This document shows, piece after piece, positions 9,118-52,569 of a stretch of DNA of 64,000 nucleotides. A program made the translations under genes and the position numbers. The stretch lies in assembly GCF_008015755.1 (NCBI RefSeq), contig NZ_SSGF01000007.1:1-64000 (forward strand), in the 5' to 3' direction. Origin of the DNA: Methylophilus sp. GTDB taxonomy: Bacteria; Pseudomonadota; Gammaproteobacteria; Burkholderiales; Methylophilaceae. Numbering within the stretch: position 1 is the stretch's first letter; the number at the start of each line of letters is the position of its first letter. A model generated the notes under the pieces. It saw only the letters and a list, made by a program, of their open reading frames with translations. It did no database searches and was not told the origin of the DNA.

Positions 9118-9152
9118 CATCAACTCCTTAAAGAATAATTGGTAGTGATATA

Positions 9153-9183: not shown

Positions 9184-9189
9184 GCATTA

Positions 9190-33329: not shown

Positions 33330-33697
33330 TGATTTTTAGACGAATTATTGTCTTTTAGTGATTGAATATTAAGCATGTGCTGGCCGTTTCGATTCGGTAA
33401 ACACAGCGCAATAAGCTTTCCATTTATGGGTTTGGTCCGCTTGATAAAACTGGCAGCTGCTAAATTGACCACTGTGAGCAGTGTTTAGCGTGAGGCGGCG
33501 ATTTTACTTTTATTTCAATACAATTGAGTGGTTTATAACAGCCAATTTCTAAAAAAGTGGTTGAAAGAAGCCGCCAATATTGGCCGCTTTTTAAACCCGA
33601 TGACATTTTTTAATTGAGAATCAATCTCTTATTGCATGTCGCAGTCATGGCATGTGTTTTGCAAGTTATCAACTCATTCAAAGTAGGGTGATGAAAT
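33330..33697. other. Intergenic region before the sigma-factor gene
   Basis: No gene was seen in 368 bp. It contains the perfect palindrome GCCAATATTGGC (33573-33584 region) followed by a T run, which may end transcription, and a Fur-like site at 33612-33633. Confidence 0.4.
33612..33633 (+). promoter_or_regulatory. Fur-like box before fecI
   Basis: AATTGAGAATCAATCTCTTA contains TGAGA-N5-TCTC, the same spacing as the strong Fur box at 23291-23309. It lies about 65 bp before the sigma-factor start, where Fur control of FecI genes is usual. Confidence 0.6.
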
Positions 33698-34198
33698 ATG
33701 AGCGAAACACTGGCTTGGTGCGGCATCGATTTAACCTGGGCATATACCGACGTCTTGCGTCGTATTGGCAGGCGTACCGCGTGTGTGCAGCGTGCCAAAG
33801 ACATCCTGCATGACGCCCTGGTATTTTTTGCCGTCTCGAGCCATCCGGCCCGTGAAGAGTCGCCGCAAGCCTATTTAAATGGCATTGTGAATCATTTGCT
33901 GGTGGATGAGTTTCGCCACAGGACGCGGTTTGTCGATGAAGACCAGATTGACGAAGCTGCGCTGATTCTGGAATGCACGCCTGAGCAATTGTACGAAACG
34001 CGGCAAAAACTGCATCACTTGCAGCGCGTGGTCGATTTGCTGCCTGAAAAATGCCGCCAGGTATTCTGGCTGTATCACGTCGATGACATGAAGCAGCGTG
34101 AAATCGCGGTGCAACTGGATATCAGCATCAATATGGTTGAAAAACACCTGATCCGCGCCATGCTCGATATCCGCGCATTTCAACAGGCTGTGCATTAA
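33698..34198 (+). CDS. fecI: FecI-type ECF sigma factor
   Basis: A 166-residue sigma factor with region 2 (DILHDALVFFAVSSHP, AYLNGIVNHLLVDEFRHRTR) and region 4 (LLPEKCRQVFWLYHVDDMKQ, IAVQLDISINMVEKHLIRAM). FecI sigmas are freed by a FecR partner when a signalling TonB receptor binds its ligand. The fecR gene follows 8 bp later and the receptor gene after that, which is the usual order. It should direct transcription of the receptor and the genes behind it. Confidence 0.9.
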   Translation: MSETLAWCGIDLTWAYTDVLRRIGRRTACVQRAKDILHDALVFFAVSSHPAREESPQAYLNGIVNHLLVDEFRHRTRFVDEDQIDEAALILECTPEQLYETRQKLHHLQRVVDLLPEKCRQVFWLYHVDDMKQREIAVQLDISINMVEKHLIRAMLDIRAFQQAVH

Positions 34199-34206
34199 CC
34201 TTGCCC

Positions 34207-35253
34207 ATGTCAAAACCGCTCACGCCCAAATCAAGCGCCTCTAGTGCAGCGGCCTCCAAGTCGCTCACCCTGAGTGAAATGGCCGCCCGCTGGTATTTGC
34301 GGATGCGTGAGCATGCGCACAACCAGCGCAGCGCCGAGCATCACGCGTTTGAGCAATGGTTAGCCGATGACCCTCGCCATGCGGCTGAATATGATAGTTT
34401 TGCCCACGCCATGCGCCAGCTCGATTCCGCCGAAAGTTTGTCGACACTGGCCGATGCCGCCGAGCAACAGGCTTTTTTAGCCAACGAAGCCGGCCGTAAA
34501 GCCAAACAGCAGCGCTTGGCACAGTTGATGGTGGTCTGCTTTATGTGTGTGGCCGGCTTTTTCTCGCACCAGCAATACCAGGTCTGGCAAGCCGCGCCCG
34601 TCATGCAGCTCGCCGCGCAAAACCCGGTCGGCCAAATTGTCACCAAAACACTGGATGACGGCACTCAAGTCACCTTGAGCGCCAAGAGCGACATGGAAGT
34701 CACTTATTATCGCCATGAGCGCCATGTGCTGCTCAAAGAAGGCGAAGCCATTTTTGAAGTGACCAAAGACCCGGATCGGCCATTTGTGGTTGAAACCGAT
34801 ACGGCAAAAATCACCGTCCTTGGCACCCGTTTCGCCGTCAACCGGCTGCAACAAGTGGTGCGCGTCAGCGTCGATCACGGGCGCGTCAAGGTCGAGCCGA
34901 AAAAAGAAGCTGCACCAGCAGCCATCACGCCGCTAGCGCGAGAAATCACCAATGGCCAGGTGCTCGAGGTCTATGCTAATCGCGCCATGGTCTTGGTCAA
35001 CCGCCCGGCTTCAGATGCCTTTGCTTTCCTCAATGGCAGGCTGGTGTTTGACCGCGCCGATACCGGTGAAATTGCCGATACCGTCTCGCGCTACCGGCAA
35101 AAACCAGTGCAGTCGCAAGGCAGGCAAGTGCGTAATATTTCTGCCGATATCAATATTCAGGACATAGACCAGTTCTTGCGTGGCCTGCCCAATATCGCGC
35201 CAGTCAGGCTGCAGGAAACGCCGCAATACACCCTGCTGCATTCCCGCCAATAG
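34207..35253 (+). CDS. fecR: FecR-type anti-sigma/signal transducer
   Basis: A 348-residue inner-membrane protein: a cytoplasmic sigma-binding start (SLTLSEMAARWYLRMREHAH, FEQWLADDPRHAAEYDSF), one membrane helix near 100-118 (LAQLMVVCFMCVAGFF), a periplasmic FecR domain (GEAIFEVTKDPDRPFVVETD, ITVLGTRFAV), and a C-terminal STN-like part (FAFLNGRLVFDRADTGEIAD) that contacts the receptor's signalling domain. ATG 34207 is used rather than the earlier TTG. Confidence 0.9.
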   Translation: MSKPLTPKSSASSAAASKSLTLSEMAARWYLRMREHAHNQRSAEHHAFEQWLADDPRHAAEYDSFAHAMRQLDSAESLSTLADAAEQQAFLANEAGRKAKQQRLAQLMVVCFMCVAGFFSHQQYQVWQAAPVMQLAAQNPVGQIVTKTLDDGTQVTLSAKSDMEVTYYRHERHVLLKEGEAIFEVTKDPDRPFVVETDTAKITVLGTRFAVNRLQQVVRVSVDHGRVKVEPKKEAAPAAITPLAREITNGQVLEVYANRAMVLVNRPASDAFAFLNGRLVFDRADTGEIADTVSRYRQKPVQSQGRQVRNISADINIQDIDQFLRGLPNIAPVRLQETPQYTLLHSRQ

Positions 35254-35428
35254 CCCACTCACGACTAAGTCATGTCACCACAGGCGCTGCTATCAGCACC
35301 TTTTTTATTAGCCTCAAGGGCTAACTGCGTTCTCGTTGCTCTCACTTCCACCCTTTGAATGTAAAGTTAGGTTAACAGCATCAGGGTTTTGCCGCGCTCA
35401 CAGATGAGTCTAAGTACAGGAGAAATCT

Positions 35429-38400
35429 GTGAATACATATAAAAAAATACATAGAAGAGGAATACACACTGCGCTAGCGGCTTTGAGCGTGATGGCAACG
35501 CAACCAGTGTGGGCGGAAGCATTGAATACCCAACTGCCAAAGCAGCAAGAGGAGAGCTTTAGTGTGCCCGTGAATGTGGATATTCCAGCGCAGCCGTTGG
35601 CTAATTCATTGCATGACCTTGGCAAAGCCACAGGCATGAATATCTCATTCCCCAATGACATCGTTTCTGGCAAAACCGCCCCCGAAGTGCGCGGCCGTAT
35701 GTCGCGTAAAGAAGCGTTGCAGCGCGTATTAGGTGAGAGTGGGCTGGTACCTAAGCTGGAAGGAAATAATGCTTTCATCCAAAAGGCGCCAAAAGAAGAA
35801 AAGCAACAAGCGCTACAACTGGAAAAAGTTGAAATACGCGCCAAACGTGCTTATGACATCGGCCCGCTGAAAGGCCTGGCGCTCACTAAGGAGGAGATTC
35901 CCGGCAACGTACAAAGCATCACCGCCAAAGAGATTAAAGAATCCAAAGCGGTGAGTTTGACTGACTTAATGAACAGCAAACTGCAGTCTGTGAACGTTAA
36001 CGACTACCAAAGCAACCCGTTTCAAATGGACGTCACCTATCGTGGTTTTACTGCCAGCCCGCAATTAGGCACTTCACAGGGTTTAAGCGTGTTTCTGGAT
36101 GGCATCCGCGTGAATGAACCATTTGGTGACGTGGTGAACTGGGACATGATCCCCATGAACGCCCTCAACAGCCTGGACGTTTTTCCCGGCTCCAATCCGT
36201 TGTTTGGCCTGGGTACGCTGGGCGGTGCCATCAGCATGAAAACCAAAAGTGGTTTTGATAGCAACGAAGGCACGGTGGAATACCTGGGTGGTTCTTTCAA
36301 GCGCAATCAGTTTCAAGGCTCTGTGGGTGGTAACAACGGCGTTATAGCTGGTTTTGCTGCGGCTAATATTTTTAAAGAAGACGGTTGGCGCGTGAACTCA
36401 CCTAGTGAGGTGAATCAAATTTTTGCTAAAGGTGAATGGCGTAATGACAGTCTACAACTGGGTTTAAGCATGCTGTATGCAGGCAATAAACTTGTGGGTA
36501 ACGGTTTGCTACCCACTGAAATGGCCAAGCAAGATGGCAGTCAAATCTTCACCAGTCCGGATGAAACTAAAAACCGCTTGTTGCAGTTCCAGTTAAACGG
36601 CACGTGGGATGTGAGTGACACCTTCAACATCACGGGGCAAGTCTACAGACGTAAGAGCCGTAGAAATGCCAGCAATGGTGATGTAAACCAGAACTTTGGA
36701 GGTAGTGCGACCCGCAGACCAAACTCAGGTGAGCAACTCGCTAATGGGGTGCCTGACTTTGATGGGGATGGGTTGCCGGATATTAATCCGGACAATGGTA
36801 TAAGTCTTGAAAATGTGGCTGCAAAGAGTGTGCCGGATGGTAGTGGGGGCAATATTCTGGCAATGTTAGATGTTAATGGCGAGCCAGAGTATTTTGGTAT
36901 TGATTCCAGTGGTAATGTTTTATTAAATTCCGCGTTCTCGGCTTATGATTCATCCTCACCTTCGGGATATGATTTAAGTCGATTGGCGATAGGTAGTGCT
37001 GCAAATTCGATTGCTGTGACAGGGCAGTCTGTAGATGCAAGCGGCAATCCAATCTGGACGCTTAATCCACAAAATCCAACAACTGCTCCTGCATTTACAC
37101 CTGAGTTTTATCAAGCAGCTTTATACGCATGGCAAACAAGAGGTTTGGCAACAGACGGTAGCAGAGATCTTCCTGGACAATTTTTTGATCCTAATAATTT
37201 AAACTATGTGTACAAAGACTCTAACGGCTTTATTGTAAGTGGATCATCTTATTCTATCACTGCATTAGACCCTGTTACGGGTGTGTCATTGGTCCGTACA
37301 TTTTCGGGATCAAACCCAGGAATTAACAAACCACTTGGATTGTTAGTCACGGACGCGAACGGCACACCCATCGAGCGTAATGGGGCTGATTGTCAACCCA
37401 ATCCAGGGCTTGGAACTTGCTCTGGTTATGTAGAAGGCACACCGACTGCGCTAATTACCCAAACAGAGATTGACCAGACCACGGATGGAGCTTCGATGCA
37501 GCTCAATTGGAATCTGGAACAACACAAGTTTATGGTAGGAGCCTCGGTTGACGCAGCAGATGCGACCTACGAAAGTGGCCAATATTTAGGCTTATTTACC
37601 GATCAGCGTAGAGCAATCCGAGACCCTAGTAAACTCGGCTACGAATTTTACGCAGCAAACAACCGGATTGACTTAAATAACTTTGATGGTAATAGCACCA
37701 CCAAAAGTATTTATTTTAGTGAGACCTGGACACCGACCAAAGAGTGGGCGTTCACAGCCGCCGGTAGGTTCAACCATACAAAGATCAAGAACGTTCTAGC
37801 CATTAATAATATCTTGGGATTGTCAGGCCCTACCGCATTTAAAAACTTTTATCAGGATGCGGTGCTGTGCCCGGACAGTAATGGAAACGGTACGTTGGAG
37901 CTAGAGGAGTGTCCTCCAGTGAGTGTGCTGCCATTTAGTCCGGAGCTGGCAGGCGGGCTAGGTTTTCTCGGTCAACCAGAAACAGAGAAGTTTACTTATC
38001 GCTCCTTTAATCCAAGTCTGGGCGCAACCTGGCAGCCAACGGAGACACTTAACTTTTATGGTAACTGGAACAGGGGTGCACGTACACCCAGTGTGATTGA
38101 ACTTGGCTGCGCGTTTGATGATACCCCCAAATACAACACAGACCCTAATACTGGCGAACTCATCTTTGTAGGGCCACGCTCTCTTGCTGAGCGACGTTTC
38201 TGTAGTTTGCCAAGTACTTTATCTGGTGACCCATATTTGAAACAAGTGCGTTCTGAGACTATTGAGTTTGGTGGGCGTGGCAATTTGACGCCAACGATAC
38301 AGTGGAATGCCACTGCCTATCAAACTGACTTGACTGATGATATCTACTTCGTCTCTTTCACCGCTGAGCGTAGCTTCTTTCAGAATATTGGCGACACTCG

Positions 38401-39121: not shown

Positions 39122-39259
39122 ACATAAATGAAACTAGATTGGTTTGTTATGAAGTGCATTTGTGAACTACACATAAGTGCAACTTAAAAAAGATTCAATC
39201 ACGTTCAGATTAGAACTCACAAGGCGCTAACAGAATGTGCTGAATTGGTGAAGCAACAC

Positions 39260-39281
39260 GCAGGCAGCCACAAATGCCTGC
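39260..39281 (+). terminator. Hairpin before the first secreted-protein gene
   Basis: GCAGGCA pairs with TGCCTGC around 8 nt, followed by a T-rich stretch (TCATTTTAACCTTTTT). It lies between the receptor and the secreted-protein gene and may be an attenuator or an mRNA end. Confidence 0.45.
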
Positions 39282-39311
39282 TCATTTTAACCTTTTTATT
39301 AGGAGCATGTA

Positions 39312-40325
39312 ATGAGAAATCAATTACTAAAGTTAGCCGTGATGACAGCATTTGGCGTATCAGCTAATGCATTTGCAACAGGCTTGGAAAGCTTACCAGC
39401 GGCAGGCTTCACGGTGACTGCGGGTACAAATCAGGCAGCAGGTACTACAGGTTGGCGTGAGTGCAATACCACAGGGTTGTATGGTAGTTTGAGTTACACA
39501 GCACCCACTGCTGGTGCTAATAATACTTGTGCGGTCTTCCCTTCCGGTGGAAATAATCCCGGTACTCCGGTGACCGGGTTTACAAGTGTAACCCTATCTA
39601 CAGCAAAACAAAGTGTCAATATCACAGCTAATGGTGAAGTTTTAGCGCGTATGAGACAAAGAGTCTATCGCAACGCTGCTGCAACTGAATGTGTTTTTGA
39701 AAAGCGTTTTGAAATGAATACCAGTAGTGGGTTGACAAATCCAGCAGTAGCAGCCGCAACGTTTGATTACAACCCACAATTAGATGGCAGTCAGCGTCTG
39801 GAGGTAAACGATTATGTTTTCGGTGGGTTTAGTGGTACTACGGATGTAAGTGCTGGTTATTATCACTCAGCAAATACCGACTCACCGGTTTTCAGAATGG
39901 GCCGCTCATTTACTTCAGTTCAAATTCAGGGCGATGATTTTGATGCAGCTACCGCATTAAATGCAGGTTATGTACGTCGTCCAGTGAATAGCCCTGCACC
40001 TGCTTCTAGTACAGAAATTAATGGCGTTGGCCAGACATTGGTTAATCCAGGTACGCCGACTGCTGCGCAGCAAACTGCAGAGATTCGCACCAATTGGGTG
40101 GACTTTACTGTTGACGTAACAGGTGGTGTAGATGAGGACGGTACAACTGCTAAGGATAGTCCATTTATGTATGTACGTTCCGGTTGCGGTTCAGGCACTG
40201 AAGCAACAGCATTTCCAACAACCAACAATACTGTGCGTATTCGCCAGACTGGACAGGAGTCTCAGCCATGGGTCACTGTGGTCACTAATGGTGTGACACG
40301 TAGCGGTGCCAATGCAAACTTCTAA
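39312..40325 (+). CDS. Secreted four-cysteine protein A (candidate T2SS substrate)
   Basis: A 337-residue protein with a signal peptide (1-22, ending ANAFA) and no known domain. It is a clear paralog of the next gene: NTTGLYGS/NATGAFG, NTCAV/NTTCAV, ECVFEK/ECIFGT, EVNDYVFGGFSG/EINDIVRGGFGG, FRMGRSFTSVQ/YRVGRSMTSVK, WVDFTVDV/WVDFTTDV and RIRQTGQ/RLRTTGQ. All four cysteines are shared, so two disulfides are likely. Low lysine and high Asn, Thr and Gly content suits an extracellular protein. AGGAGC precedes the start. Placement between receptor and secretion genes suggests it is exported by the T2SS and binds the receptor's ligand. Confidence 0.7.
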   Translation: MRNQLLKLAVMTAFGVSANAFATGLESLPAAGFTVTAGTNQAAGTTGWRECNTTGLYGSLSYTAPTAGANNTCAVFPSGGNNPGTPVTGFTSVTLSTAKQSVNITANGEVLARMRQRVYRNAAATECVFEKRFEMNTSSGLTNPAVAAATFDYNPQLDGSQRLEVNDYVFGGFSGTTDVSAGYYHSANTDSPVFRMGRSFTSVQIQGDDFDAATALNAGYVRRPVNSPAPASSTEINGVGQTLVNPGTPTAAQQTAEIRTNWVDFTVDVTGGVDEDGTTAKDSPFMYVRSGCGSGTEATAFPTTNNTVRIRQTGQESQPWVTVVTNGVTRSGANANF

Positions 40326-40359
40326 TTCTGTATTGATTTAGTGTTAAGCATGTAACAAA

Positions 40360-40388
40360 TTGCCAGCGATGTAGCTTGTCGCTGGCAA
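40360..40388 (+). other. Perfect 10-bp hairpin between the two secreted-protein genes
   Basis: TTGCCAGCGA pairs with TCGCTGGCAA around 9 nt. No T run follows, so it probably protects or separates the mRNA of the first secreted-protein gene and does not stop transcription fully. Confidence 0.6.
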
Positions 40389-40414
40389 CCCCTCCGACTT
40401 AAGGGAGCGATGAA

Positions 40415-41230: not shown

Positions 41231-41275
41231 AAGACCTCTATCTTTTCGCAGGGTTAATTTTAGAAAGTGACGACG

Positions 41276-41695
41276 ATGAAAGTGGCGAAATTTAAGCAAG
41301 CAGGCTTTACTTTGCTGGAGTTGCTGGTGGTGATGGTGATTATCGGCCTGCTGGCGGGTTATGTGGGCCCCAAGTATTTTGCCCAGATTGGCAAATCAGA
41401 AACCAAAACGGCTAAAGCACAAATTGAGGCACTGTCACGTGCCTTGGATACCTATCGTCTGGATATTGGTCATTATCCGTCAACTGAGCAAGGCCTGGCG
41501 GCGCTTAATCGACAGCCGGATGGTGAGGCGAAATGGCAGGGGCCTTACTTGGCCAAAGGCGTACCCGCGGACCCGTGGGGCAGGGCTTACCAATACCGCT
41601 ACCCCGGTGAGCATGGTGATTATGATGTGTGGACGCTGGGCAGTGATGGCGCGGTGGGCGGCCAAGACGCAGATAGCGACGTCGGTAACTGGTAG
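41276..41695 (+). CDS. gspG: T2SS major pseudopilin GspG
   Basis: A 139-residue prepilin-like protein: short basic leader, cleavage site before FTLLELLVVMVIIGLLAG with Glu5, and the GspG tail features (TEQGLAALNRQP, ADPWGRAYQYRYPGEHGDYD, LGSDGAVGGQDADSDVGNW) including the C-terminal calcium-site region. It polymerises into the pseudopilus. ATG 41276 is preferred to GTG 41267. No prepilin peptidase gene is in this locus, so a PilD elsewhere must process it. Confidence 0.9.
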   Translation: MKVAKFKQAGFTLLELLVVMVIIGLLAGYVGPKYFAQIGKSETKTAKAQIEALSRALDTYRLDIGHYPSTEQGLAALNRQPDGEAKWQGPYLAKGVPADPWGRAYQYRYPGEHGDYDVWTLGSDGAVGGQDADSDVGNW

Positions 41696-41714
41696 TGCTT
41701 TAAGCGAAACGGCG

Positions 41715-42905: not shown

Positions 42906-42918
42906 GAAAGACCATGCC

Positions 42919-44634: not shown

Positions 44635-45481
44635 CCCTGGTGTGGATTGCCGCCTGGCCGATAGCCGCCGCTGGTGGCAGGCATGGACTGCGCCAGAATT
44701 GCGTCTGGTCATCACTTGTGACGCATTGGAAGTGTTCCAATTTCAACGCGCCTGGTGGCCGGGCAGTCGCCCGCAGATGGTTAGCCATCAACGTCATGCC
44801 TTACCAGGCAATGCGCACGATATATTGCCGCCAGACGCATTGTGGTCGACCTTATCAGACGTATTAGCGCCATTGGTGGACCAGCGCTGGCACGTGGTGG
44901 TGGTGCTTTCTAACCAGTATGCGCGCTGGCTGGTGCTGCCGTGGCAGGCCGAGATTCGCTCGCAGGCTGATCTGGCCGCGTATTACCGCCATGGCTTGCA
45001 GCAGGCCTTTGCCAGCGATGGCCAGGATTGGCAGATACAGGCGCAGCCGGGGGGGTATGGCCAGCCTATCTTGCTCAATGCCTTGCCAGTGGCCCTCATG
45101 CAACAATTACAAACCGTGCTGGCTACACATCGTTTGCTACCCGGCATCATCACCCCCGCCTGGACGCTGGCCGCCAACCTGGCCTTGCAGGTGATGCGTC
45201 AGCAAGGCTTGCCAGCCGAGGGCTGGATTGTCTGCCGCGAGACGGGCAGCTTAACCGTTGCCTGTCTGCTGCAAGGCTACTGGCAGCACATCCGTCAGGT
45301 GCCGGTAGACTCGCAATGGCAGCAGACCTTGCATCAACTATTGCTGCGTGAGCAAGCTATTCATCCCGCGCGTGCGGACTTGCCGGTTTTTTTACCACAA
45401 ACGCCAGCGAGTAGCGTGAGGCAGCAGTCTGTGCCGCTGTTTGTTGAGGTGGCTGCGTTGGCCAGGCAGGGGAGTCACTGA
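44615..45481 (+). CDS. PilM/GspL-like cytoplasmic platform protein
   Basis: GTG 44615 lies 7 bp after AGGAG, inside the gspE end, so translation is coupled. The 288-residue product has no membrane helix. A GspL-type stretch (WHVVVVLSNQYARWLVLPWQ) and later actin-like strands (GWIVCRETGSLTVACL) suggest the PilM or GspL cytoplasmic fold that links the ATPase to the membrane platform. Sequence similarity is low, so the call leans on gene order. The stop overlaps the next ATG. Confidence 0.65.
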   Translation: MLLHSPDPGVDCRLADSRRWWQAWTAPELRLVITCDALEVFQFQRAWWPGSRPQMVSHQRHALPGNAHDILPPDALWSTLSDVLAPLVDQRWHVVVVLSNQYARWLVLPWQAEIRSQADLAAYYRHGLQQAFASDGQDWQIQAQPGGYGQPILLNALPVALMQQLQTVLATHRLLPGIITPAWTLAANLALQVMRQQGLPAEGWIVCRETGSLTVACLLQGYWQHIRQVPVDSQWQQTLHQLLLREQAIHPARADLPVFLPQTPASSVRQQSVPLFVEVAALARQGSH

Positions 45482-45996
45482 TGACGCAAGTGCGCATCAA
45501 TTATGCGGCAGGTCGTCTGCCCGGGCCGATGGCGACATTGCTGGGTAGTCTGCTGCTCATAGGCCTGGTCTGCCTGGTGGTGATCTATCAACAGCTTGCC
45601 GAGGACAATACGCGCTTGCAGCAACAATGGCAGGCACGCCAATCGGCGCTGGCGGCGAGTCGGCAAGTGGCTGCTACGCCTGTGGTGAATCAGGCGCTGG
45701 CAGCGGACATCGCCGCGGCGCAGGTGCAGATTCAAACGCCGTGGTTAGCGTTGTTGAGTGGCCTAGAACGCGCACAGCAAGCGCAGCTGTACTGGCTGCA
45801 ACTCTCCCCCGATGCCAAACGCAAACAGGTGCGCATGACGGTGCTGGCGCAGCAACGTCAGCAAGGCTGGGCGTTGGTCGAGCGGCTCAAAAAACAATCC
45901 GGCCTGGCCGACGTGAAACTCAAGGCCAGCGAAGCCACCGAAGTGAACGGCTTGCGCATGACCACCTTGCATCTGGAGGCCGGATGGCTGTTTTAA
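45481..45996 (+). CDS. PilN-like inner-membrane platform protein
   Basis: A 171-residue protein with one N-terminal membrane helix (MATLLGSLLLIGLVCLVVIY), a coiled coil (LAEDNTRLQQQWQARQSALA) and a small alpha/beta end, the layout of PilN and of the periplasmic half of GspL. Its ATG is the last base of the preceding stop codon, and its end overlaps the PilO-like gene. Confidence 0.65.
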   Translation: MTQVRINYAAGRLPGPMATLLGSLLLIGLVCLVVIYQQLAEDNTRLQQQWQARQSALAASRQVAATPVVNQALAADIAAAQVQIQTPWLALLSGLERAQQAQLYWLQLSPDAKRKQVRMTVLAQQRQQGWALVERLKKQSGLADVKLKASEATEVNGLRMTTLHLEAGWLF

Positions 45997-46541
45997 GCCC
46001 AATCCTGCAGCGCCTGCGCTTTGTCTGCCAGCAAACATGGCAGAGTCACCGTTGGCTGCTAGTCATGTTGCTCATCACGATGGTATTGTCTGCGCTGATC
46101 GCACAGGCCTGGTGGCTTCGCCAGACTCTTCAAGTCGCTATTCAAGCATTGCCAATGCAGACCAGGGAGGCCATGCAGGCCAGAGTTGCGCCCCTTACCC
46201 GCCCTGTCGCCACAACTGCGGCACAAACCTGGCCCGTTGAAGACGAAGCAGACCGTATCAGCGCCGAGATTCTGGCCACCGCGGATGCCATGGGCATGCT
46301 GTTTGAGCGGGCAGAGTTTCAGTCTATTGCGCTTGAACAGAGTCGCTTGCAAGTGCAGCGCATCAAATTGCCGCTCAAAGGCGATTATTTGCAGGTGCGT
46401 CACTTTTTGCAGCAGGTGTTGCAGCATTACCCCAGCCTGGCATTGAGCCAGTTTAAATTGCAGCGTAGCGATGTCATGCAACCTGAGCTTGAGGCTTATG
46501 TGGAGTTTAGTTTGTATACACGCAAGCGAGGTCAGCCATGA
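45984..46541 (+). CDS. PilO/GspM-like inner-membrane platform protein
   Basis: ATG 45984 follows CTGGAGG at good spacing. The 185-residue product has one membrane helix (WLLVMLLITMVLSALIAQAW), a helical stalk and a ferredoxin-like end (LQVQRIKLPLKGDYLQVRHF, AYVEFSLYTRKR), as in PilO and GspM. It overlaps both neighbours, so the platform genes are made in fixed ratio. Confidence 0.65.
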   Translation: MAVLSPILQRLRFVCQQTWQSHRWLLVMLLITMVLSALIAQAWWLRQTLQVAIQALPMQTREAMQARVAPLTRPVATTAAQTWPVEDEADRISAEILATADAMGMLFERAEFQSIALEQSRLQVQRIKLPLKGDYLQVRHFLQQVLQHYPSLALSQFKLQRSDVMQPELEAYVEFSLYTRKRGQP

Positions 46542-47047
46542 TGCGGCGCGGATTCGTATGGGCCGCACTGGTATGCACCTTGCTGGCATGCTGGTGGGTA
46601 GAGCAGGCCGACGAACAGGCATCATCGCCTGCGGCGTCGGCTGAGCCTGCGCCGCGGCAGCGCGTGAGTTTGGCACAGGCGCTGCCTTTGCCAAATGCTC
46701 CAGCATCATACGCCACGGACTTACAACGCATTGCAGAAACGGCTCACAGCCTGACGACAGCCGATGATGCCGCGATTGATCTGTTTGCCGTGCTGCACCC
46801 AGCTTCGGCCGAGAGTGCACCGCCCGTTGCGCCTGAAGCTGTCAATCCATATACCTATGCCGGTCGCTTGCAAGAAGATGGTCGCTGGATCGTGTTTTTA
46901 ACCGACGGTCAACAACAGTACGTGTTACACGCGGGGGACCGCTTTGCCGATGGCTGGCAGGTGGCGTTGTTGGATCAACAAAAAATCGTGCTGCAACATG
47001 CGGCCGAGCGCTTTGAAATCAGGCTGGATAATGGGGTGGTATTTTGA
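46538..47047 (+). CDS. PilP/GspC-like linker protein
   Basis: A 169-residue protein with a signal or membrane helix (residues 5-22), an Ala/Pro-rich linker, and a C-terminal beta domain (YTYAGRLQEDGRWIVFLTDG, YVLHAGDRFADGWQVALLDQ) of the HR type found in PilP and GspC, which contacts the secretin. It starts in an ATGA overlap with the previous gene, and its stop overlaps the secretin start. Confidence 0.65.
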   Translation: MMRRGFVWAALVCTLLACWWVEQADEQASSPAASAEPAPRQRVSLAQALPLPNAPASYATDLQRIAETAHSLTTADDAAIDLFAVLHPASAESAPPVAPEAVNPYTYAGRLQEDGRWIVFLTDGQQQYVLHAGDRFADGWQVALLDQQKIVLQHAAERFEIRLDNGVVF

Positions 47048-49029
47048 ACAAGCAAGTGAAGCATAAAATGAGCCATTGGGCCTGGTGGTTGGGCTGCCCA
47101 CTGTTATTGGCGGGATGCAGCAATCTGTTGCCCGCACCGCAAACCGGCGATGCCACGCTAGAGCAGGCCAGAATCTATGCCGCGCGCGGCCAGGACGATG
47201 AGGCCATCCAGCTATTGCAGCCCTTGGTCGATCAGTATCCGCGCCAGCCACAATACAAAAACTGGCTCACCTTGTTGCAAGAGAAAAAACTGCAAAAACA
47301 ATTGCAGCAAGCTGATAGTTTGCAGGCCTCGCAGCAATACGATGCGGCGAGCGAGGCTTACCAGCAAGTGCTGAAGCTCTCGCCCAACAACCGTGCGGCC
47401 AGTGATGGCCTGCAAAAGGTGCAACTGGCACGCCAGCATGCGGCACAACTGGCACAAGTGCAATTAGCCATATCGGCAGAAGACCTGGCCGGGGCCGAAT
47501 TTGGGTTACGTATCATTTTGGCTGAGCAGCCTGCACACGCTGAGGCGCGGCAATTATTCGAGCAGCTTGAGCAGAAAAAAAACGAGCGCAGCAGCGTGGT
47601 GCGGCCATTGCAGTCATCCCTTAAAAAGAAAGTCACGCTAGAGCTGAAAAACACGCCGATAAAAAATGCTTTTGAATACCTGGGCAAGGCGGGCGACCTC
47701 AATTTTTCGTTTGACCAGGAGCTCAACGAGGGCATACGCGTCAATGTCTTGTTGCGCGATACCCCAATTGAGCAGGCGTTGGAAGTGATTCTCACCAGCC
47801 ACCAGCTGGGCAAAAAAGTGCTCAATAGCAATACCTTGCTGATTTATCCGCAAGCCCGCGCGGCGCAATATGAGGAGTTGTTTGTGCGCAGTTTTTACCT
47901 GACGCACATGGACGCCAAACGTGCGCTCAACATGATGAAAACCGTGTTGCGCGCCAGCGATGTGTATATGGATGAAAAGCTGAATACGCTGGTGATGCGC
48001 GACACCATGGACCGCATTAAAGTGGCCGAAAAACTGATTGCCTCGCAAGACCTCAATGAACCCGAGGTGATGCTCGAAGTGGAGGTGATGGAAATCAATC
48101 GCCGCAACCTGGAAAACGTGGGCATTCAGTACCCTACACAGATTGGCGTGGGCGTGCAGGGCAATGCGGCGGGTAACAGTAGTGGCACCCAACCGCAGGC
48201 GGGCAAGCTGACCTTGACCGAGTTGCGTAACTTTAATGGCAATCTGGGCGTGTTTTCAATCAATGATCCGGCCATTGTGCTTAACCTGCTGCATCAGGAT
48301 ACCGACACCAATTTGTTGGCCAGCCCCAAAATCCGCGTCAAAAACCGTGATCGCGCCAAGATTCATGTCGGTGACAAAATCCCAGTGCTGACCAGTGTGG
48401 CCAGTGCGCAGGGCTTTGTTAGCCAGAATGTGAATTATATTGAGGTCGGCATCAAGCTCGATGTCGAGCCGGTGATCCAGATGCAGGACCAGGTCAGTAT
48501 CAAAGTCGGCATGGAGGTCAGCAATATTACCGATCAGGTCACCACCAGCTCTGGCGTGCTGGCGTACACCATCGGTAGCCGCAACGCCAATACCACCTTG
48601 CAGTTACGCAATAACGAAACGCAGATTCTGGCCGGACTATTCCGTGACGATGAGCAGAAAACCCGCCGCAAAGTACCAGGCCTGGGCAACTTGCCGCTGA
48701 TAGGCAAACTGTTTAGCAGCAACAATGAAGACAAGCGCAAAAACGAAATTGTATTGCTGATTACACCGCGCATTATGCACAACCTGAGCCCGGCCAGTGC
48801 GGTCTATAGCCTGATTCCTTCCGGCATCGCCGCCACGGCTAATCCGGTGGGCGCGGGTGGCGCGCGCGCCGTGCAGTCTAGCGACACACCGTCTAACCCG
48901 GTTGCTACGCCTCTCAATAGCTCGAATGACCGTGCAAGAGTGGATGCAAACTTTGCTGATCAATTGATCAATTCGGCGCCACCTAATCCAGCGGCGAGCC
49001 CCAATACCATGATTATTCAGAGTCAATAA
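47044..49029 (+). CDS. gspD: T2SS secretin with N-terminal TPR region
   Basis: The 661-residue outer-membrane channel is a lipoprotein (LLLAGC, Cys25). Residues about 35-180 are TPR-like helices (ARIYAARGQDDEAIQLLQPL), then an STN/N0 domain (VTLELKNTPIKNAFEYLGKA), an N1 domain (ALNMMKTVLRASDVYMDEKL) and the secretin core (LLASPKIRVKNRDRAKIHVG, VPGLGNLPLIGKLF, IVLLITPRIM). The TPR part probably serves in place of a separate pilotin. TTG 47044 gives a basic n-region (MNKQVKHK); ATG 47068 is the alternative. Confidence 0.85.
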   Translation: MNKQVKHKMSHWAWWLGCPLLLAGCSNLLPAPQTGDATLEQARIYAARGQDDEAIQLLQPLVDQYPRQPQYKNWLTLLQEKKLQKQLQQADSLQASQQYDAASEAYQQVLKLSPNNRAASDGLQKVQLARQHAAQLAQVQLAISAEDLAGAEFGLRIILAEQPAHAEARQLFEQLEQKKNERSSVVRPLQSSLKKKVTLELKNTPIKNAFEYLGKAGDLNFSFDQELNEGIRVNVLLRDTPIEQALEVILTSHQLGKKVLNSNTLLIYPQARAAQYEELFVRSFYLTHMDAKRALNMMKTVLRASDVYMDEKLNTLVMRDTMDRIKVAEKLIASQDLNEPEVMLEVEVMEINRRNLENVGIQYPTQIGVGVQGNAAGNSSGTQPQAGKLTLTELRNFNGNLGVFSINDPAIVLNLLHQDTDTNLLASPKIRVKNRDRAKIHVGDKIPVLTSVASAQGFVSQNVNYIEVGIKLDVEPVIQMQDQVSIKVGMEVSNITDQVTTSSGVLAYTIGSRNANTTLQLRNNETQILAGLFRDDEQKTRRKVPGLGNLPLIGKLFSSNNEDKRKNEIVLLITPRIMHNLSPASAVYSLIPSGIAATANPVGAGGARAVQSSDTPSNPVATPLNSSNDRARVDANFADQLINSAPPNPAASPNTMIIQSQ

Positions 49030-49037
49030 ACGTGTGT

Positions 49038-49511
49038 ATGCCAGGTCAGCGAACGTATGGATTTACATTAGTCGAGTTGTTGGTGACGCTGGCCTTACTC
49101 GCATTGCTGGTGACCTCGGCCAGCCCGGTGCTGCAACTCAACGCCAAGCGTGACAAAGAGCGCGAACTCAAGCGCGCCTTATGGCAAATCCGTGATGCAC
49201 TGGATGCGTATAAAGACGCGGTCGATCAGGGCCTGATTAAGAAGACGGCCGAGGGGAGTGGCTATCCACCTAATCTGGCAATCCTTGTGACTGGCGTTGA
49301 AAATGCACAAGACGCCAAAAAGAAAAAACTGTTTTTTTTGCGCCGCATTCCGCGCGACCCGTTTGCGGCAGATGCCACGCAAAGCAATGCCGCCACCTGG
49401 CAAATCCGTGCCTACGATGGGGCGTTGGACGACATGGCGCAAGACGTCTATGACGTGTCGTCGCGCTCGCCTACCATCGGCATTAACCAACAACCTTATA
49501 GCGCGTGGTAA
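49038..49511 (+). CDS. Pseudopilin, GspG-like
   Basis: A 157-residue prepilin-like protein: leader MPGQRTYG, then FTLVELLVTLALLALLVTSA with Glu5, and a body with RIPRDPFAAD and WQIRAYDG. It is longer than GspG and lacks its C-terminal calcium segment. It is probably a minor pseudopilin. ATG 49038 is preferred to GTG 49032. It lies 8 bp after the secretin gene. Confidence 0.75.
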   Translation: MPGQRTYGFTLVELLVTLALLALLVTSASPVLQLNAKRDKERELKRALWQIRDALDAYKDAVDQGLIKKTAEGSGYPPNLAILVTGVENAQDAKKKKLFFLRRIPRDPFAADATQSNAATWQIRAYDGALDDMAQDVYDVSSRSPTIGINQQPYSAW

Positions 49512-49515
49512 CACC

Positions 49516-49887
49516 ATGAAACGTGGATTCACCTTGATTGAAATGCTGGTGGTGCTGGCGATTCTGGCCATGTTGCTGACGATTGTCTCGCCCAAATTTA
49601 TGCATATGTTGCAGCGTTCTAAAGAAACCACTTTACGTCATGACCTGCTGACCATGCGTGACGCCATTGATAAATTTTACAGCGACAAAAACCGCTACCC
49701 AGAAACGCTGGACGAATTGGTCGAACGCCAATATCTCAAAGCCATCCCGCCTGACCCGGTGACTGAGCGCGCGGATACCTGGGTGATTACCTTGCCACCG
49801 AATATAGACGAGCAAGGCAGTGTGTTTGATGTGCATAGCGGTTCGACGCGATTAGCTGAGGATGGCACGCCCTATGCGCTGTGGTAG
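49516..49887 (+). CDS. Pseudopilin, GspG-like (short)
   Basis: A 123-residue protein with a very short leader (MKRG), then FTLIEMLVVLAILAMLLTIV with Glu5, and a body ending in PPDPVTERADTWVITLPPN. It has the usual GspG features DKNRYPETLDELVE and DPVT. It starts 4 bp after the previous pseudopilin gene and overlaps the next one by 26 bp. Confidence 0.8.
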   Translation: MKRGFTLIEMLVVLAILAMLLTIVSPKFMHMLQRSKETTLRHDLLTMRDAIDKFYSDKNRYPETLDELVERQYLKAIPPDPVTERADTWVITLPPNIDEQGSVFDVHSGSTRLAEDGTPYALW

Positions 49888-50368
49888 GCCGCCTGACTGC
49901 GGCTTTGTGCTGATCGGCATGTTGATGCTGGTCATGCTCAGTGGCCTGGTGATGGCGCAGGCCAGCATGCGCTGGCACACGCAGGTGCTGCGCGAGCGCG
50001 AGGCAGAGTTAATCAAGGTCGGGCTGGCTTACCGCGACGCCATTGGCCGTTATTACAACCAGACGCCAGGCGTGGTCAAAACCTTTCCGCCCACCCTCGA
50101 GGCCTTGCAGGAAGATAGCCGTTTTCCGACCGCGCGCCGCCATTTACGCAAACCCTACGTCGACCCCATCACACAACGTGAAGGCTGGGGTATTGTCGAG
50201 GCCCCCAGTGGCGGCATCATGGGGATTTACAGCCTGTCTGACAAACCACCTTTTAAAACCAAAGGTTACCGCGGCGAATTGCAGCATCTCAATGACAAAC
50301 GCTATTACGGTGAGTGGTACTTTGTCTACTTGCCGCAGCCGCTAGGCCTCAATACTAGTGGCATGTGA
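49862..50368 (+). CDS. Pseudopilin-like protein lacking Glu5
   Basis: A 168-residue protein with leader ending PPDCG, followed by FVLIGMLMLVMLSGLVMAQA. The residue at +5 is Gly where nearly all pseudopilins have Glu. In tip proteins of the GspK type this glutamate is also not needed, so it may cap the pseudopilus. The body has LTDKPP-like and YRGELQHLNDKRYYGEWYFV segments that I do not recognise. The start may be ATG 49862 or 49874. It ends the secretion-gene run. Confidence 0.65.
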   Translation: MARPMRCGRPPDCGFVLIGMLMLVMLSGLVMAQASMRWHTQVLREREAELIKVGLAYRDAIGRYYNQTPGVVKTFPPTLEALQEDSRFPTARRHLRKPYVDPITQREGWGIVEAPSGGIMGIYSLSDKPPFKTKGYRGELQHLNDKRYYGEWYFVYLPQPLGLNTSGM

Positions 50369-50564
50369 TTGTGTAAAGTTATGTTATTGACGTCAGGCTT
50401 TTAGCTCGCCCAGCGATTAAACATATGAAGGGATGTAAATGTGAGAAATTCCTGTCGTTGATGGGGCTTTTTCCTTGTATGCACTTTTGCCTGGTTAACC
50501 GCGGGACCAAAGTGCAGTAAGCACCCGGATTATTTCTAATCTGATTTTTATAATGGAGCGTGCT

Positions 50565-51203
50565 GTGGACTTAGTGCCTGATATTGTTGATCTTGTGTTG
50601 GTTTTGCTGGGCGTGTTGTCGGTGCTGGTGTGGTCCATCATCCTGATGAAAAGCTGGGCCTGGTTTAAGTCGCGCAATGAGGCGAACCACTTTTTATCTG
50701 AGTGGCAGCAGGTGAAAACCATTTATGAGTTGCCAAAAATTATCTCCCATAGCAATAGCAGTTTTGCGCGTTTGTGCGATGCCGGTATGCGGGCGATGAA
50801 CGAGGTGATGGCGAATTCGGTGTTGCGCAGAAACGAGCGCCAGGAGGTGATTTTGTTGTCTCTCAAGCAGCAGGCTTATCTGGAGCAAAAGCGCATGGAT
50901 GGCGGCGTGGCAGTGTTGGCGAGCATAGGCTCTACGGCGCCGTTTATCGGTTTGTTTGGCACGGTATGGGGCATTATGAATGCGCTTAAAACCATCACCG
51001 CCACCGGTTCTGCCGGGCTGGACGTGGTGGCCGGGCCGATTGGTGAGGCGCTGATTGCGACGGCGATTGGCATTGCCACGGCGGTGCCTGCCGTGCTGGC
51101 TTACAACTATTTTATGCGCAAGCAAAAAGTGCATAAGGCAGACATGGAGCAAGTGGCCAGCCGCTTTCAATCACTGCTGACGCAGTCAGGCGCGGAAGGC
51201 TAA
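50565..51203 (+). CDS. exbB: ExbB-type Ton motor protein
   Basis: An inner-membrane MotA/TolQ/ExbB-family proton channel of about 212 residues with three helices (LVLVLLGVLSVLVWSIILMK, ASIGSTAPFIGLFGTVWGIM, and IGEALIATAIGIATAVPAVL). The GLFGTVWGIM and ATAIGIATAVPA motifs are complete. GTG 50565 has GGAG 6 bp upstream; ATG 50553 is the alternative. With ExbD and TonB behind it, it should energise the TonB receptor of this locus. Confidence 0.9.
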   Translation: MDLVPDIVDLVLVLLGVLSVLVWSIILMKSWAWFKSRNEANHFLSEWQQVKTIYELPKIISHSNSSFARLCDAGMRAMNEVMANSVLRRNERQEVILLSLKQQAYLEQKRMDGGVAVLASIGSTAPFIGLFGTVWGIMNALKTITATGSAGLDVVAGPIGEALIATAIGIATAVPAVLAYNYFMRKQKVHKADMEQVASRFQSLLTQSGAEG

Positions 51204-51207
51204 TATC

Positions 51208-51621
51208 ATGGCGATTTTAGGTGATAGTGACAATGAAGACCTGGTAAGCGAAATCAATGTGACGCCGCTGGTGGATGTGATGCTGGTGTTGCTCACCGTG
51301 TTTATTGTGACGGCGCCTTTGTTGATGAATGCAGTGAAGGTGAAGCTGCCGCAAGCCAGTGCCGAGGTGGCGATTACCACGCCTAAAACAGCACATATCA
51401 GCGTGACGGATGCGGGTGATGTGTTTTTGGACCAGCAACGCCTGGCGCTGGAAGGCTTAACCCCGGCGCTGGGCCAGCTCAAGCAAAGCCAAGACCCGGC
51501 GGTGGAGATTTATGCCGACGAGCACGCGCAATACGGCGTGGTGGCCAAAGTGTTGGCGGCGATTCAGCGCGCAGGCATTAGCAAATTTAGTTTTGTGATG
51601 TCGCCAGAGGTTGGGAAATAA
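51208..51621 (+). CDS. exbD: ExbD-type Ton motor protein
   Basis: A 137-residue protein with SEINVTPLVDVMLVLLTVFI, which holds the membrane helix with the essential Asp (Asp24 region), followed by a periplasmic domain. It starts 4 bp after exbB and completes the proton-driven motor. Confidence 0.9.
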   Translation: MAILGDSDNEDLVSEINVTPLVDVMLVLLTVFIVTAPLLMNAVKVKLPQASAEVAITTPKTAHISVTDAGDVFLDQQRLALEGLTPALGQLKQSQDPAVEIYADEHAQYGVVAKVLAAIQRAGISKFSFVMSPEVGK

Positions 51622-51625
51622 AGGC

Positions 51626-52438
51626 ATGAGCAGCCTGATTTACCCTGAGCAGCAAGACTATTCGCTGATTTGGCGGGCGGTGATTGTCTCGCTGGCGCTG
51701 CATGCGCTGGTGGTGGTGTTTTATCCGGCACTGAGCCAGATTGAACTGCCCAAGCTGCCAGACCGCCTTGAAATTGAGTTTTTTTCGATCAAAGCTGCAG
51801 CCCCAAGCGTGCAAGCGGTGGCGCCGCCGACAGAGGTGGCTAAGCCGCTTGAGCCCCCTAAGGCGACGACTACGCCTGTGGTGAAGCCACAAACGCCGGT
51901 AGAAACACCCAAACAGGTGTTGGCGGCGCCAAGCAGTCAACCGTCGGATTACCGTGTGCCAGAGCAGGTCGCCCCCGCCAAGGCCGAGCCAGCGCCCGTG
52001 ACCCCGGCAGCCGCCACGCCTAGCGTGAGTGCGGCAGAGAGTGCGCAGCCCGCGGCGAATGACGCCCCTGCCAAAGACAGCAAACCCAGCGTGGCGGCCA
52101 GTGCAACGCCAGCCAGCAGCGAGTCTGAGGAGTTAAATGCCGGTGATACCGATGCCTGGGGCGATTATGGCGAGCAATTGCGTGCGCTAGTGGGTAAAAG
52201 CAAACAATATCCGGCCATTGCGGTGCGCCGCCATCTCGAAGGCGAGGCGACGGTGGTGGCGCAGTTTGTGCGCGGTGAGCTGGTGAATGTGTCACTGGCT
52301 GGCAGCAGCAAGCATGTGCCGCTGGATGAAGAGGCGATGCGCATGGTGAAAAAAGCCATTGCACAGCTGGGCGTGAAAGACAGTTTAAAAAAGAAGAGCT
52401 TCAAAATAACAATACCAGTGAATTTTAAACTGGAGTGA
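51626..52438 (+). CDS. tonB: TonB-family energy transducer
   Basis: A 270-residue protein with an N-terminal membrane helix (IWRAVIVSLALHALVVVFYP, keeping the Ser-x3-His motif), a long Pro/Ala/Lys-rich periplasm-spanning region (about 60-165) and a TonB C-terminal domain (YPAIAVRRHLEGEATVVAQF). It lies 4 bp after exbD and is followed by a terminator. It is likely dedicated to the receptor at 35429. Confidence 0.9.
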   Translation: MSSLIYPEQQDYSLIWRAVIVSLALHALVVVFYPALSQIELPKLPDRLEIEFFSIKAAAPSVQAVAPPTEVAKPLEPPKATTTPVVKPQTPVETPKQVLAAPSSQPSDYRVPEQVAPAKAEPAPVTPAAATPSVSAAESAQPAANDAPAKDSKPSVAASATPASSESEELNAGDTDAWGDYGEQLRALVGKSKQYPAIAVRRHLEGEATVVAQFVRGELVNVSLAGSSKHVPLDEEAMRMVKKAIAQLGVKDSLKKKSFKITIPVNFKLE

Positions 52439-52521
52439 TCCCTTCGCGGTTTCCCGAAGGCTGGCGTCATTAGAAAGTAAATCCCTCACTTTCGCTCAAT
52501 GGTGGCGCCTGCTCTATGTAA

Positions 52522-52569
52522 CCCCTGTCATTTGCCAATTTTCCTCCGGCAAGTGCAGGGGATTTTTTT
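52522..52569 (+). terminator. Terminator of the Ton/T2SS locus
   Basis: CCCCTGTCATTTGCC pairs with GGCAAGTGCAGGGG with one interior mismatch and is followed by T7. It closes the gene run that starts at fecI. Confidence 0.85.

Follow-up and report, generated by a model that had tools for sequence, protein, structure and literature searches.

A conserved block of receptor, exporter and exported-protein genes in Methylophilaceae suggests a private send-out-and-fetch-back feeding device

Gene content of the locus

The window analysed here is the whole 64,000 nt stretch of Methylophilus sp. assembly GCF_008015755.1 (contig NZ_SSGF01000007.1, positions 1–64,000, forward strand). A sequence-only reading of this DNA had described one locus running from fecI and fecR through a receptor and exported proteins to type II secretion system (T2SS) genes and exbB-exbD-tonB, and we confirmed this order, with every gene on the + strand (Table 1). 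The ECF sigma factor and FecR anti-sigma factor beside an STN-bearing receptor have the layout of FecIRA-type surface signalling; the receptor possesses a full barrel (Pfam, 1.1e-40) and an STN domain that scores below the Pfam cut-off (E 5.4e-5). Direct reading likewise confirmed the hairpin with its T run at the end of the locus, whose loop is longer than the limit of our hairpin scan. No Rfam match was obtained in the 64 kb window.

Table 1. Features of the locus and the basis on which each was assigned
Feature	Position	Strand	Basis
Enhancer-like repeat 1, GGTT-N6-AGCC	33530..33543	+	Kept in genus alignment
Enhancer-like repeat 2, GGTT-N6-AGCC	33559..33572	+	Genus alignment and pattern searches
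Fur-like element TAATTGAGAATCAATCTCTTA, conserved	33611..33631	+	11/11 aligned same-genus loci
Sigma-54 promoter-like site TGGCATGTGTTTTGCA (TGG-N10-GC)	33648..33663	+	Kept in genus alignment
fecI-like ECF sigma factor	33698..34198	+	Pfam Sigma70_r4_2 1.7e-13
fecR-like anti-sigma factor	34207..35253	+	Pfam FecR 4.4e-18; NCBIfam FecR model 4.9e-27, below cut-off
TonB-dependent transducer, STN + Plug + barrel, 1230 aa	35429..39121	+	Pfam
Giant loop of receptor, hypervariable, residues ∼430–660	36716..37408	+	Column conservation as low as 0.14
SecA, exported partner protein, 337 aa, four conserved Cys	39312..40325	+	
SecB, SecA paralogue, 271 aa	40415..41230	+	Sequence comparison with SecA
gspG, major pseudopilin	41267..41695	+	TIGR01710 176.6 bits (cut-off 88.85)
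gspF	41715..42905	+	Pfam T2SSF 3.6e-53
gspE, ATPase	42919..44634	+	Pfam T2SSE 3.1e-125
gspL-like, start uncertain	44642..45481	+	Position only; GspL family match absent
gspM/PilN-like	45481..45996	+	Position and Pfam PilN (E 0.087)
gspN/PilO-like	45984..46541	+	Position and Pfam PilO (E 0.028)
gspC/B-like	46538..47047	+	Position and Pfam T2SSB (E 0.049)
gspD, secretin, N-terminal TPR repeats	47044..49029	+	Secretin 3.1e-40, TPR
Minor pseudopilin 1	49032..49511	+	N_methyl 1e-6
Minor pseudopilin 2	49516..49887	+	N_methyl 1e-8
Minor pseudopilin-like protein 3	49862..50368	+	Conserved position; no family match
exbB	50553..51203	+	MotA_ExbB 2.8e-33
exbD	51208..51621	+	ExbD 2.1e-29
tonB	51626..52438	+	TonB_C 4.7e-10
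Terminator-like hairpin CCCCTG...CAGGGG, then ATTTTTTT	52522..52569	+	Direct reading

The T2SS block comprises eleven genes (41267–50368) separated by gaps of +19 to −26 nt. It had been called complete, which holds in so far as GspD, GspE, GspF, GspG and the pseudopilins stand in one cluster; the L, M, N and C components, however, were assigned mainly by position together with weak PilN, PilO and T2SSB similarity. Among the T2SS proteins scanned, GspG alone passed a curated NCBIfam cut-off, and GspE, GspF and GspD scored about as well against type IV pilus models as against T2SS ones. That the core proteins score almost equally as type IV pilus proteins counts against the interpretation preferred below. 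No prepilin peptidase gene lies within the locus; one was found elsewhere in the genome (C16:210076).

Distribution and linkage in the Methylophilaceae

A GspD orthologue was detected in 39 of 187 Methylophilaceae genomes, scoring at least 641 bits, compared with 492 bits for the next best secretin. The partner family (that of SecA and SecB) and this T2SS subtype occurred in the same 39 genomes, and none carried one alone. In 34 of the 39 loci a same-strand receptor ends 53–454 bp upstream of the partner; the other five comprise three with a receptor–partner gap of ∼3.5–3.8 kb, one with the receptor on the opposite strand and one at a contig end. T2SS genes were found downstream of the partner in 37 loci, the other two ending at contig ends. 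Having searched other genomes for this gene order, we found order and content to recur in 39; receptor and T2SS are kept together as a conserved unit, so the separation that would have spoken against the sequence-only reading is not what homologous loci display, and the gene block is confirmed as real.

Other members are less constant. The private Ton motor claimed for the locus is present in the window as exbB-exbD-tonB, but the DNA retrieved around each locus includes a full motor for 20 of the 39 (19 relatives and the window itself), and 22 loci had fecI called close to the receptor; neither is therefore a fixed neighbour. A same-strand RTX protein gene is located downstream in 26 loci, 23 of which also have type I secretion (T1SS) genes, and in many relatives these stand directly after the RTX gene; other cargo is therefore possible. 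The window locus contains no type I secretion genes, and the relatives' RTX protein has no full-length match in the window genome (partial matches at 34–47 % identity), so it is not needed here.

The exported partner proteins

SecA and SecB are 26 % identical (E 1e-20) and both have signal-peptide-like starts. The four cysteines that had been noted in them were borne out, three being invariant and one nearly so across 18 aligned proteins. The expectation of two paralogues held for the window, where the proteins are related, but this is one variant only, as loci carry one to three copies. Searches with SecA and SecB returned no Pfam or NCBIfam family, including no match to HasA; a Pfam line assigning SecA to RCC1_2 (E 0.43) was below its cut-off and was rejected. 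A PDB sequence search with the partner gave a single match (E 0.97), and the best Foldseek E-values, 0.016 and 0.0067, came with TM values of at most 0.36 among the 50 matches listed for each, which we read as no match. SecA also had no match among the PLSDB plasmids. The partner has no known family or fold, and fold and sequence matches lend no support to ligand binding by SecA or SecB. Among the open-licence papers listed by our searches, which mostly did not extend to subscription papers, no title, abstract opening or passage viewed described the locus or the partner family.

Remote relatives of the partner are often found next to receptors and often carry PEP-CTERM tails; in L143 and L144, relatives with this tail lie beside a cluster that we read from translations as exopolysaccharide/exosortase genes. 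Receptor–partner pairs are kept even where no T2SS of this type is nearby. SecA and SecB of the window have no PEP-CTERM match, and no lipobox was seen on reading their sequences.

Control region upstream of fecI

The sigma-54 promoter-like site is the sole exact match within the 64 kb window to TGG-N10-GC, which we take to be the sigma-54 consensus. Our upstream alignment covered 11 of the 15 genus members with the locus (all except G067, G068, G073 and G079), and in two of the remaining four, G068 and G073, the repeats and the sigma-54 site are likewise present. Of the 22 loci with fecI, 20 have GGTT-N6-ARCC repeats near its start; none of the 39 loci has them near the start of the partner gene. 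As the repeat pattern was taken from the same-genus alignment, the independent test is confined to the 12 loci outside the genus, ten of which have it. The same repeats are common to other TonB receptors, one of which adjoins an NtrC-type regulator gene, and no regulator in the genome reached the cut-off of the PrsR model.

Fur control of fecI and fecR, as had been proposed, is weakly supported: the Fur-like box matches the Escherichia coli Fur 19-mer at 12 of 19 positions, which is chance level given that 881 of 2999 random 331 bp stretches score likewise, although the 21 nt element is retained in the 11 same-genus loci aligned. G067 has no close match to it, and a 13/19 site occurs in G054, which lies outside the genus. 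A 15 nt palindrome at the Fur-like site was not counted as evidence, since it was defined after the site had been seen. The putative sigma-54 promoter with its repeats is the deeper and more widely conserved control, and sigma-54 control of fecI-fecR is, on these patterns, the best explanation.

Co-divergence of receptor and partner

In partial Mantel tests given gspE, gspD and gspF (n = 32), divergence of the receptor barrel was strongly correlated with that of the partner (r = 0.726), in contrast to the STN domain (r = 0.09). T2SS genes of comparable evolutionary speed, taken as controls, gave values near zero: gspL 0.085, gspC 0.093 and gspN −0.016. The giant loop co-diverges with the partner as the barrel does. 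For the 21 loci in which FecR was called, the values were 0.819 for STN–FecR, −0.147 for barrel–FecR and 0.725 for barrel–partner. The domain-level test with n = 32 was run without G127, G172 and G173 (extra receptor–partner DNA), G056 (receptor split into ORFs in a draft assembly), and G050 and G175 (no same-strand receptor). An earlier, looser test that still included G172, G173 and G056 gave partial r values of 0.271 for partner–gspF and 0.512 for TBDR–RTX. Joint transfer of neighbouring genes can also yield co-divergence. Taken together, the domain-level values support the view that outer parts of the receptor and partner probably change together, the STN domain going with FecR and not with the partner. 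An EF-hand-like loop (residues 816–827) and a DxDGDG motif (from residue 443) are also present in the receptor; a lanthanide or calcium role suggested by these motifs was set aside because the EF-hand-like loop falls in a weakly conserved block (0.35).

Two close pairs of loci bear on the same question. Between G060 and G061, FecI, FecR and most T2SS and T1SS proteins are 94–100 % identical (FecR, 99 %), whilst the first partner proteins are 35 % identical and the barrels 23–62 % by block, and over the region that starts inside the receptor gene and takes in both partner genes blastn returned no match of >150 bp. Comparison of these loci shows joint replacement of barrel and partner in one close pair. 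The STN-plug region also differs (protein identity 0.68–0.85 past the first 60 residues); the boundary of the exchange therefore does not fall neatly at the barrel. The pair G110/G108 breaks the receptor–partner coupling: a barrel distance of 0.44 goes with 92 % and 97 % identity in the two partner proteins, indicating that receptor loops can change alone.

Discussion

We consider it probable, at roughly 60 %, that these genes make up a self-contained TonB uptake system with surface signalling, in which a dedicated T2SS sends out a partner matched to the receptor. Genome comparison shows the linkage, the one-to-one occurrence of T2SS and partner, the STN–FecR and barrel–partner co-divergence, the joint replacement in one close pair, and the conserved sigma-54-type site with its repeats; passage through the T2SS, binding and ligand delivery by SecA and SecB are what we infer. 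The proposed secrete-and-retrieve unit keeps its conserved combination, its T2SS–partner pairing and a receptor whose outer parts co-diverge with the partner, but Fur control is weakly supported and neither two paralogues nor the Ton motor is a fixed feature. The sigma-54 promoter and enhancer-like repeats would turn on fecI-fecR; signal peptides would take SecA and SecB to the periplasm, where disulfides would form, and both would exit via the T2SS. Outside, they may dock on the giant variable loops of the receptor and present captured ligand, for which a ferric chelate is our first guess. ExbB-ExbD-TonB would power uptake, and receptor occupancy would be signalled via STN to FecR and then FecI. 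Barrel and partner would form a matched pair, exchangeable together on a fixed signalling and T2SS chassis; the partner may diffuse or remain on the surface, as the proposal covers either.

The best reading is that such a device would work like the Has hemophore system, with unrelated parts. The Serratia marcescens order is hasI-hasS-hasR-hasA-hasD-hasE-hasB (PMC9249621), so that sigma factor, anti-sigma factor, signalling receptor, secreted partner, secretion genes and a system-specific TonB-type protein follow one another as here, with signalling via the receptor in both. The Has exporter, however, is type I according to that account (PMC9249621), whereas a T2SS stands next to the partner here; our partner has no HasA match and there is no evidence for heme. 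The locus also differs in its own ExbB/ExbD, its sigma-54-type promoter and a partner and barrel that are jointly replaceable. PUMA3 of Pseudomonas aeruginosa (VreA-VreI-VreR) similarly places surface-signalling genes beside T2SS genes (Hxc), secreted proteins including an alkaline phosphatase, and exbB2-exbD2, all regulated by its sigma factor (PMC2729926). VreA is barrel-less in that account, unlike the receptor here with its full transporter barrel, and the Hxc substrate named there is an enzyme, whereas our partner belongs to no known family and co-diverges with the barrel (PMC2729926). PEP-CTERM/exosortase systems with PrsK-PrsR have sigma-54-type sites and an upstream motif that is sometimes repeated (PMC1569441, PMC9850573); these recall the PEP-CTERM tails of remote relatives, the sigma-54-type site with repeats and the NtrC-type regulator gene by a receptor. 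The motif 1 given there ends in TTTACA, in contrast to GGTT-N6-ARCC (PMC1569441, PMC9850573), and the window proteins lack the tail. Lastly, IrsA of Legionella pneumophila, an iron-regulated T2SS exoprotein of ∼15 kDa, provides a T2SS-dependent exoprotein tied to low-iron growth, although the available part of the source mentions no linked receptor or T2SS genes (PMC11705809).

A more far-reaching version, which we hold tentatively and at a little under even odds, is a lock-and-key form of private uptake, in which a dedicated T2SS releases a member of a new protein family that serves a single receptor, and barrel and protein are exchanged together between lineages on a fixed signalling and secretion chassis, so that each lineage would own a version unusable by its neighbours. 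It would amount to a T2SS-based counterpart of the hemophore systems, and a sister branch would rely on PEP-CTERM surface sorting in place of secretion.

Several other explanations were weighed. The one that survives best, and that overlaps with our own, is quite conceivable though we put it somewhat short of an even chance: SecA and SecB could leave through the T2SS yet be retained at the cell surface as a co-receptor or receptor lid. SusD on SusC and TbpB on TbpA are surface partners of this sort. The PEP-CTERM tails of relatives adjoining receptors and the co-divergence of partner with the outer loops would both fit, but SecA and SecB, having neither such a tail nor a visible lipobox, display no sign of retention. 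A far less probable alternative, which we regard as unlikely, makes the exported protein the message or cargo in its own right, with the receptor sensing or importing a protein from kin; self-recognition would make pairs diversify, as strong co-divergence and the joint replacement between near-identical chassis might suggest, yet G110/G108 changed receptor loops with unchanged partners, and ExbBD-TonB and a control element common to other TonB receptors point to nutrient uptake.

More unlikely still, and to a like degree, are two further possibilities. Escape from phages or bacteriocins, with SecA/SecB shielding a receptor for ordinary chelate uptake that needs no partner, would suit a giant loop that is the most variable part and can change without the partner; it leaves the tie of a whole T2SS to the partner, and partner–barrel co-divergence, unexplained. 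Alternatively, one operon might serve two independent functions, with the receptor taking up an iron chelate and the T2SS secreting SecA/SecB or other proteins for adhesion or matrix building. This would accord with the RTX and T1SS genes of many loci and with the putative exopolysaccharide/exosortase cluster in L143 and L144, but the co-divergence is barrel-specific and absent for gspL, gspC and gspN, and receptor–partner pairs remain where no such T2SS is near. A periplasmic role for SecA/SecB in aiding receptor or T2SS is very improbable: a signal peptide is all that their sequences display, but they co-diverge with barrel and outer loop and not with the periplasmic STN, and relatives carry a surface-sorting tail.

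If our preferred reading of a dedicated, receptor-matched export system is true, a T2SS can serve one nutrient receptor privately, with an undescribed protein family as the matching extracellular part. A fixed chassis with exchangeable pairs, such as that of G060 and G061, would offer a direct testbed for receptor–partner specificity, for the ownership of shared goods and for TonB receptor evolution. Methylotrophs, for which iron, copper and lanthanide acquisition is still open ground, would also gain an uptake system that is under signalling control and has a sigma-54-type promoter.

Occurrence and gene linkage of the locus

In the source genome of the window (Methylophilaceae, 2.75 Mb, 40 contigs), a single strand between 33.5 and 52.6 kb carries fecI, fecR, a 1230-aa STN–Plug–barrel receptor, the exported proteins SecA and SecB, eleven T2SS genes, exbB, exbD, tonB and a terminator-like hairpin. 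SecA and SecB are paralogues without a Pfam or NCBIfam family; the nearest named match to SecA is from Methylophilus sp. QUAN (87 % identical). Their predicted structures are beta-rich (pLDDT 80.6 and 79.9; pTM 0.84 and 0.82, respectively), and neither protein had a significant match in the PDB. Contig 30 of the genome encodes another, distant T2SS, whose GspD is 39 % identical; the locus T2SS is therefore additional and apparently dedicated.

A profile search for the Sec family (the SecA/SecB-type partners) was positive in 39 of 187 Methylophilaceae genomes, and matching of the lists by hand showed these to be the same 39 that contain orthologues of the window GspD (at least 641 bits); the remaining genomes had none, and the next secretins scored ≤ 492 bits. 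Across the 39 loci (38 fetched stretches and the window), the receptor ORF ends 53–454 bp upstream of the first sec gene in 34, and T2SS genes lie downstream in 37, the other two being truncated by contig ends. The linkage of receptor and T2SS proposed in the sequence-only reading thus extends across homologous loci. The receptor gene is on the opposite strand in genome G175, the locus in G050 lies at a contig end, and ∼3.5–3.8 kb separates receptor from sec in G127, G172 and G173. In G172 and G127 (stretches L119–L120 and L098), the two inspected, this space holds one long ORF (∼1130–1200 aa) between a 1381–1384-aa receptor-like protein and the sec gene; the gap in G173 is of the same size.

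Other components vary. There are one to three sec copies per locus, and 22 of the 39 have a fecI called close to the receptor. The private Ton motor of the sequence-only reading is present in the window as exbB–exbD–tonB, but was found inside the fetched stretch in 20 of 39 loci. A same-strand gene for a cysteine-free RTX-repeat protein (∼750 aa), which has no full-length match in the window's genome, lies between sec and the T2SS in 26/39 loci; type I secretion genes occur in 23/39, most RTX loci having ABC, ABC, HlyD and TolC genes. Some loci also encode, in the interval from sec to gspG, a long TPR-repeat protein, for which the 25 Pfam matches listed were to repeat-type families alone. One further locus (L016), in a metagenome bin that bears the label Gammaproteobacteria, combines the receptor with three sec copies, an RTX gene and T2SS genes. 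Of the genes neighbouring the window locus (see table), the GGDEF/EAL-type gene has close orthologues at the corresponding position of L009 (92 %) and G062 (83 %).

Features in and around the locus and its relatives
Feature	Location	Position or context	Basis
TIR-like protein	window 1254–2210	low-GC stretch	translation only
Copper-handling cluster (oxidase, MerR-type regulator, P-type ATPase)	window 3855–11694		translation only
Transposase	window 16184–16960		translation only
Another TonB receptor	window 23336–25492		translation only
Receiver-EAL-type protein	window 30005–31189 (− strand)	just upstream, divergent from locus	reading of translation
GGDEF/EAL-type protein	window 31419–33329 (− strand)	just upstream, divergent from locus	reading of translation
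Related 800-aa TonB receptor with same double repeat, then NtrC-type sigma-54 response regulator	L166:6072–9913	window's genome (G000), contig 7, 14–18 kb	
RTX-repeat protein	L015:10963–13227 and orthologues		
TPR-repeat protein	L013:9256–11427 and orthologues		
Receptor, then two or three PEP-CTERM-type proteins	L145:6583–12738; also L142, L143, L144		

Receptor barrel and partner diverge together

Pairwise protein distances across loci were correlated with gspE, gspD and gspF distances held constant. Sec gave partial correlations (n = 32 loci) of 0.726 with the barrel, 0.728 with loops 400–740, 0.567 with the plug and 0.09 with the STN domain. For the 21 loci with fecR, values were 0.819 for STN–FecR, − 0.147 for barrel–FecR, − 0.113 for STN–Sec and 0.725 for barrel–Sec; an STN–FecR interaction has been described in comparable systems (PMC11637429). 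Equally fast-evolving T2SS genes correlated with the barrel at 0.085 (gspL), 0.093 (gspC) and − 0.016 (gspN), TolC at − 0.026 (n = 18) and RTX at 0.295 (n = 21). A first, looser test, controlled for gspE and gspD only, gave 0.647 for receptor–Sec, and also 0.512 for receptor–RTX, 0.308 for Sec–RTX, 0.253 for receptor–HlyD and 0.271 for Sec–gspF; joint inheritance of neighbours therefore contributes some of the signal.

Between genomes G060 and G061, sequence comparison shows that barrel and partner were replaced jointly, the front edge of the exchange being gradual, not sharp, because the first Sec proteins are 35 % identical while FecI, FecR and most type I and T2SS proteins are 94–100 % identical (TolC 85 %, RTX 81 %). 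Receptor identity is 0.97 over the first 60 residues, 0.68–0.85 over the next ∼180 and 0.23–0.62 over most of the barrel, and blastn found no match > 150 bp from within the receptor gene to the early RTX gene. As a counter-case, G110 and G108 have a barrel distance of 0.44, yet their two Sec proteins share 92 and 97 % identity. In G060/G061, a second fecI–fecR–receptor set, with no sec gene called there, adjoins the T2SS at ∼32–38 kb of the fetched region; its receptor DNA identity also drops.

Control region

All 11 aligned same-genus loci (of 15) retain two GGTT-N6-ARCC repeats, the Fur-like 21-mer and a sigma-54-type site (TGG-N10-GC) in a 200-bp upstream region that has otherwise diverged; the window has a single exact match to the sigma-54 pattern. 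The E. coli Fur consensus, applied to the window site as a measure of the Fur control proposed earlier, gave a score at chance level. In 20/22 loci (10/12 outside the genus) the repeat occurs between − 330 and +90 relative to the fecI start, compared with 2/37 for the receptor start (both without a called fecI) and 0/39, 0/31 and 1/37 for the sec, gspG and gspE starts, respectively; 68 of 3000 random 350-bp stretches contain it.

The double repeat gave 50 strand matches in 22 genus genomes versus two for the reversed pattern, palindromic sites counting twice. Of 29 such loci inspected, eight precede a locus-type fecI and ten a receptor resembling (by its N-terminus) the 800-aa one of contig 7, the rest comprising two FecA-like receptors, one PEP-CTERM relative of SecA, two other ORFs and six without a called ORF. 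The NtrC-type regulator follows the 800-aa receptor in the window's genome; it is a candidate activator, and may regulate several TonB receptors of this genus. Genome G074 carries a double repeat together with a sigma-54-like site between a receptor and its first PEP-CTERM-type partner.

Remote relatives and resemblance to known systems

Two groups of proteins are remotely related to SecA (hhalign probability 99.1 and 99.4 %). They adjoin a TonB receptor in 8 of 11 places inspected (L137, L138, L140 and L142–L146), with none beside them in L136, L139 and L141. Those in Methylophilaceae have PEP-CTERM tails, by model matches in L145 and by eye in L142–L144. Outside the family, weak matches alone were found, in 10 more of 399 genomes sampled from the order and 2 more of 369 sampled from the class. 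The gspD, E and F genes of the locus T2SS were unmatched, among the matches listed, in the stretches inspected around the remote relatives; receptor and partner therefore form the constant pair, with the route to the surface apparently differing.

By its anatomy, the locus most likely works like the Has hemophore system, which likewise combines sigma factor, anti-sigma factor, receptor, secreted partner, own secretion genes and own TonB (PMC9249621); the gene content of the locus also recalls PUMA3–Hxc (PMC2729926). It is a member of neither, because its partner is not HasA-like, the adjoining exporter is not type I and its receptor is not barrel-less. SecA and SecB would be exported through the T2SS, bind the receptor and deliver to it a presumed ligand, the partner acting as either a surface-tethered co-receptor or a diffusible carrier.
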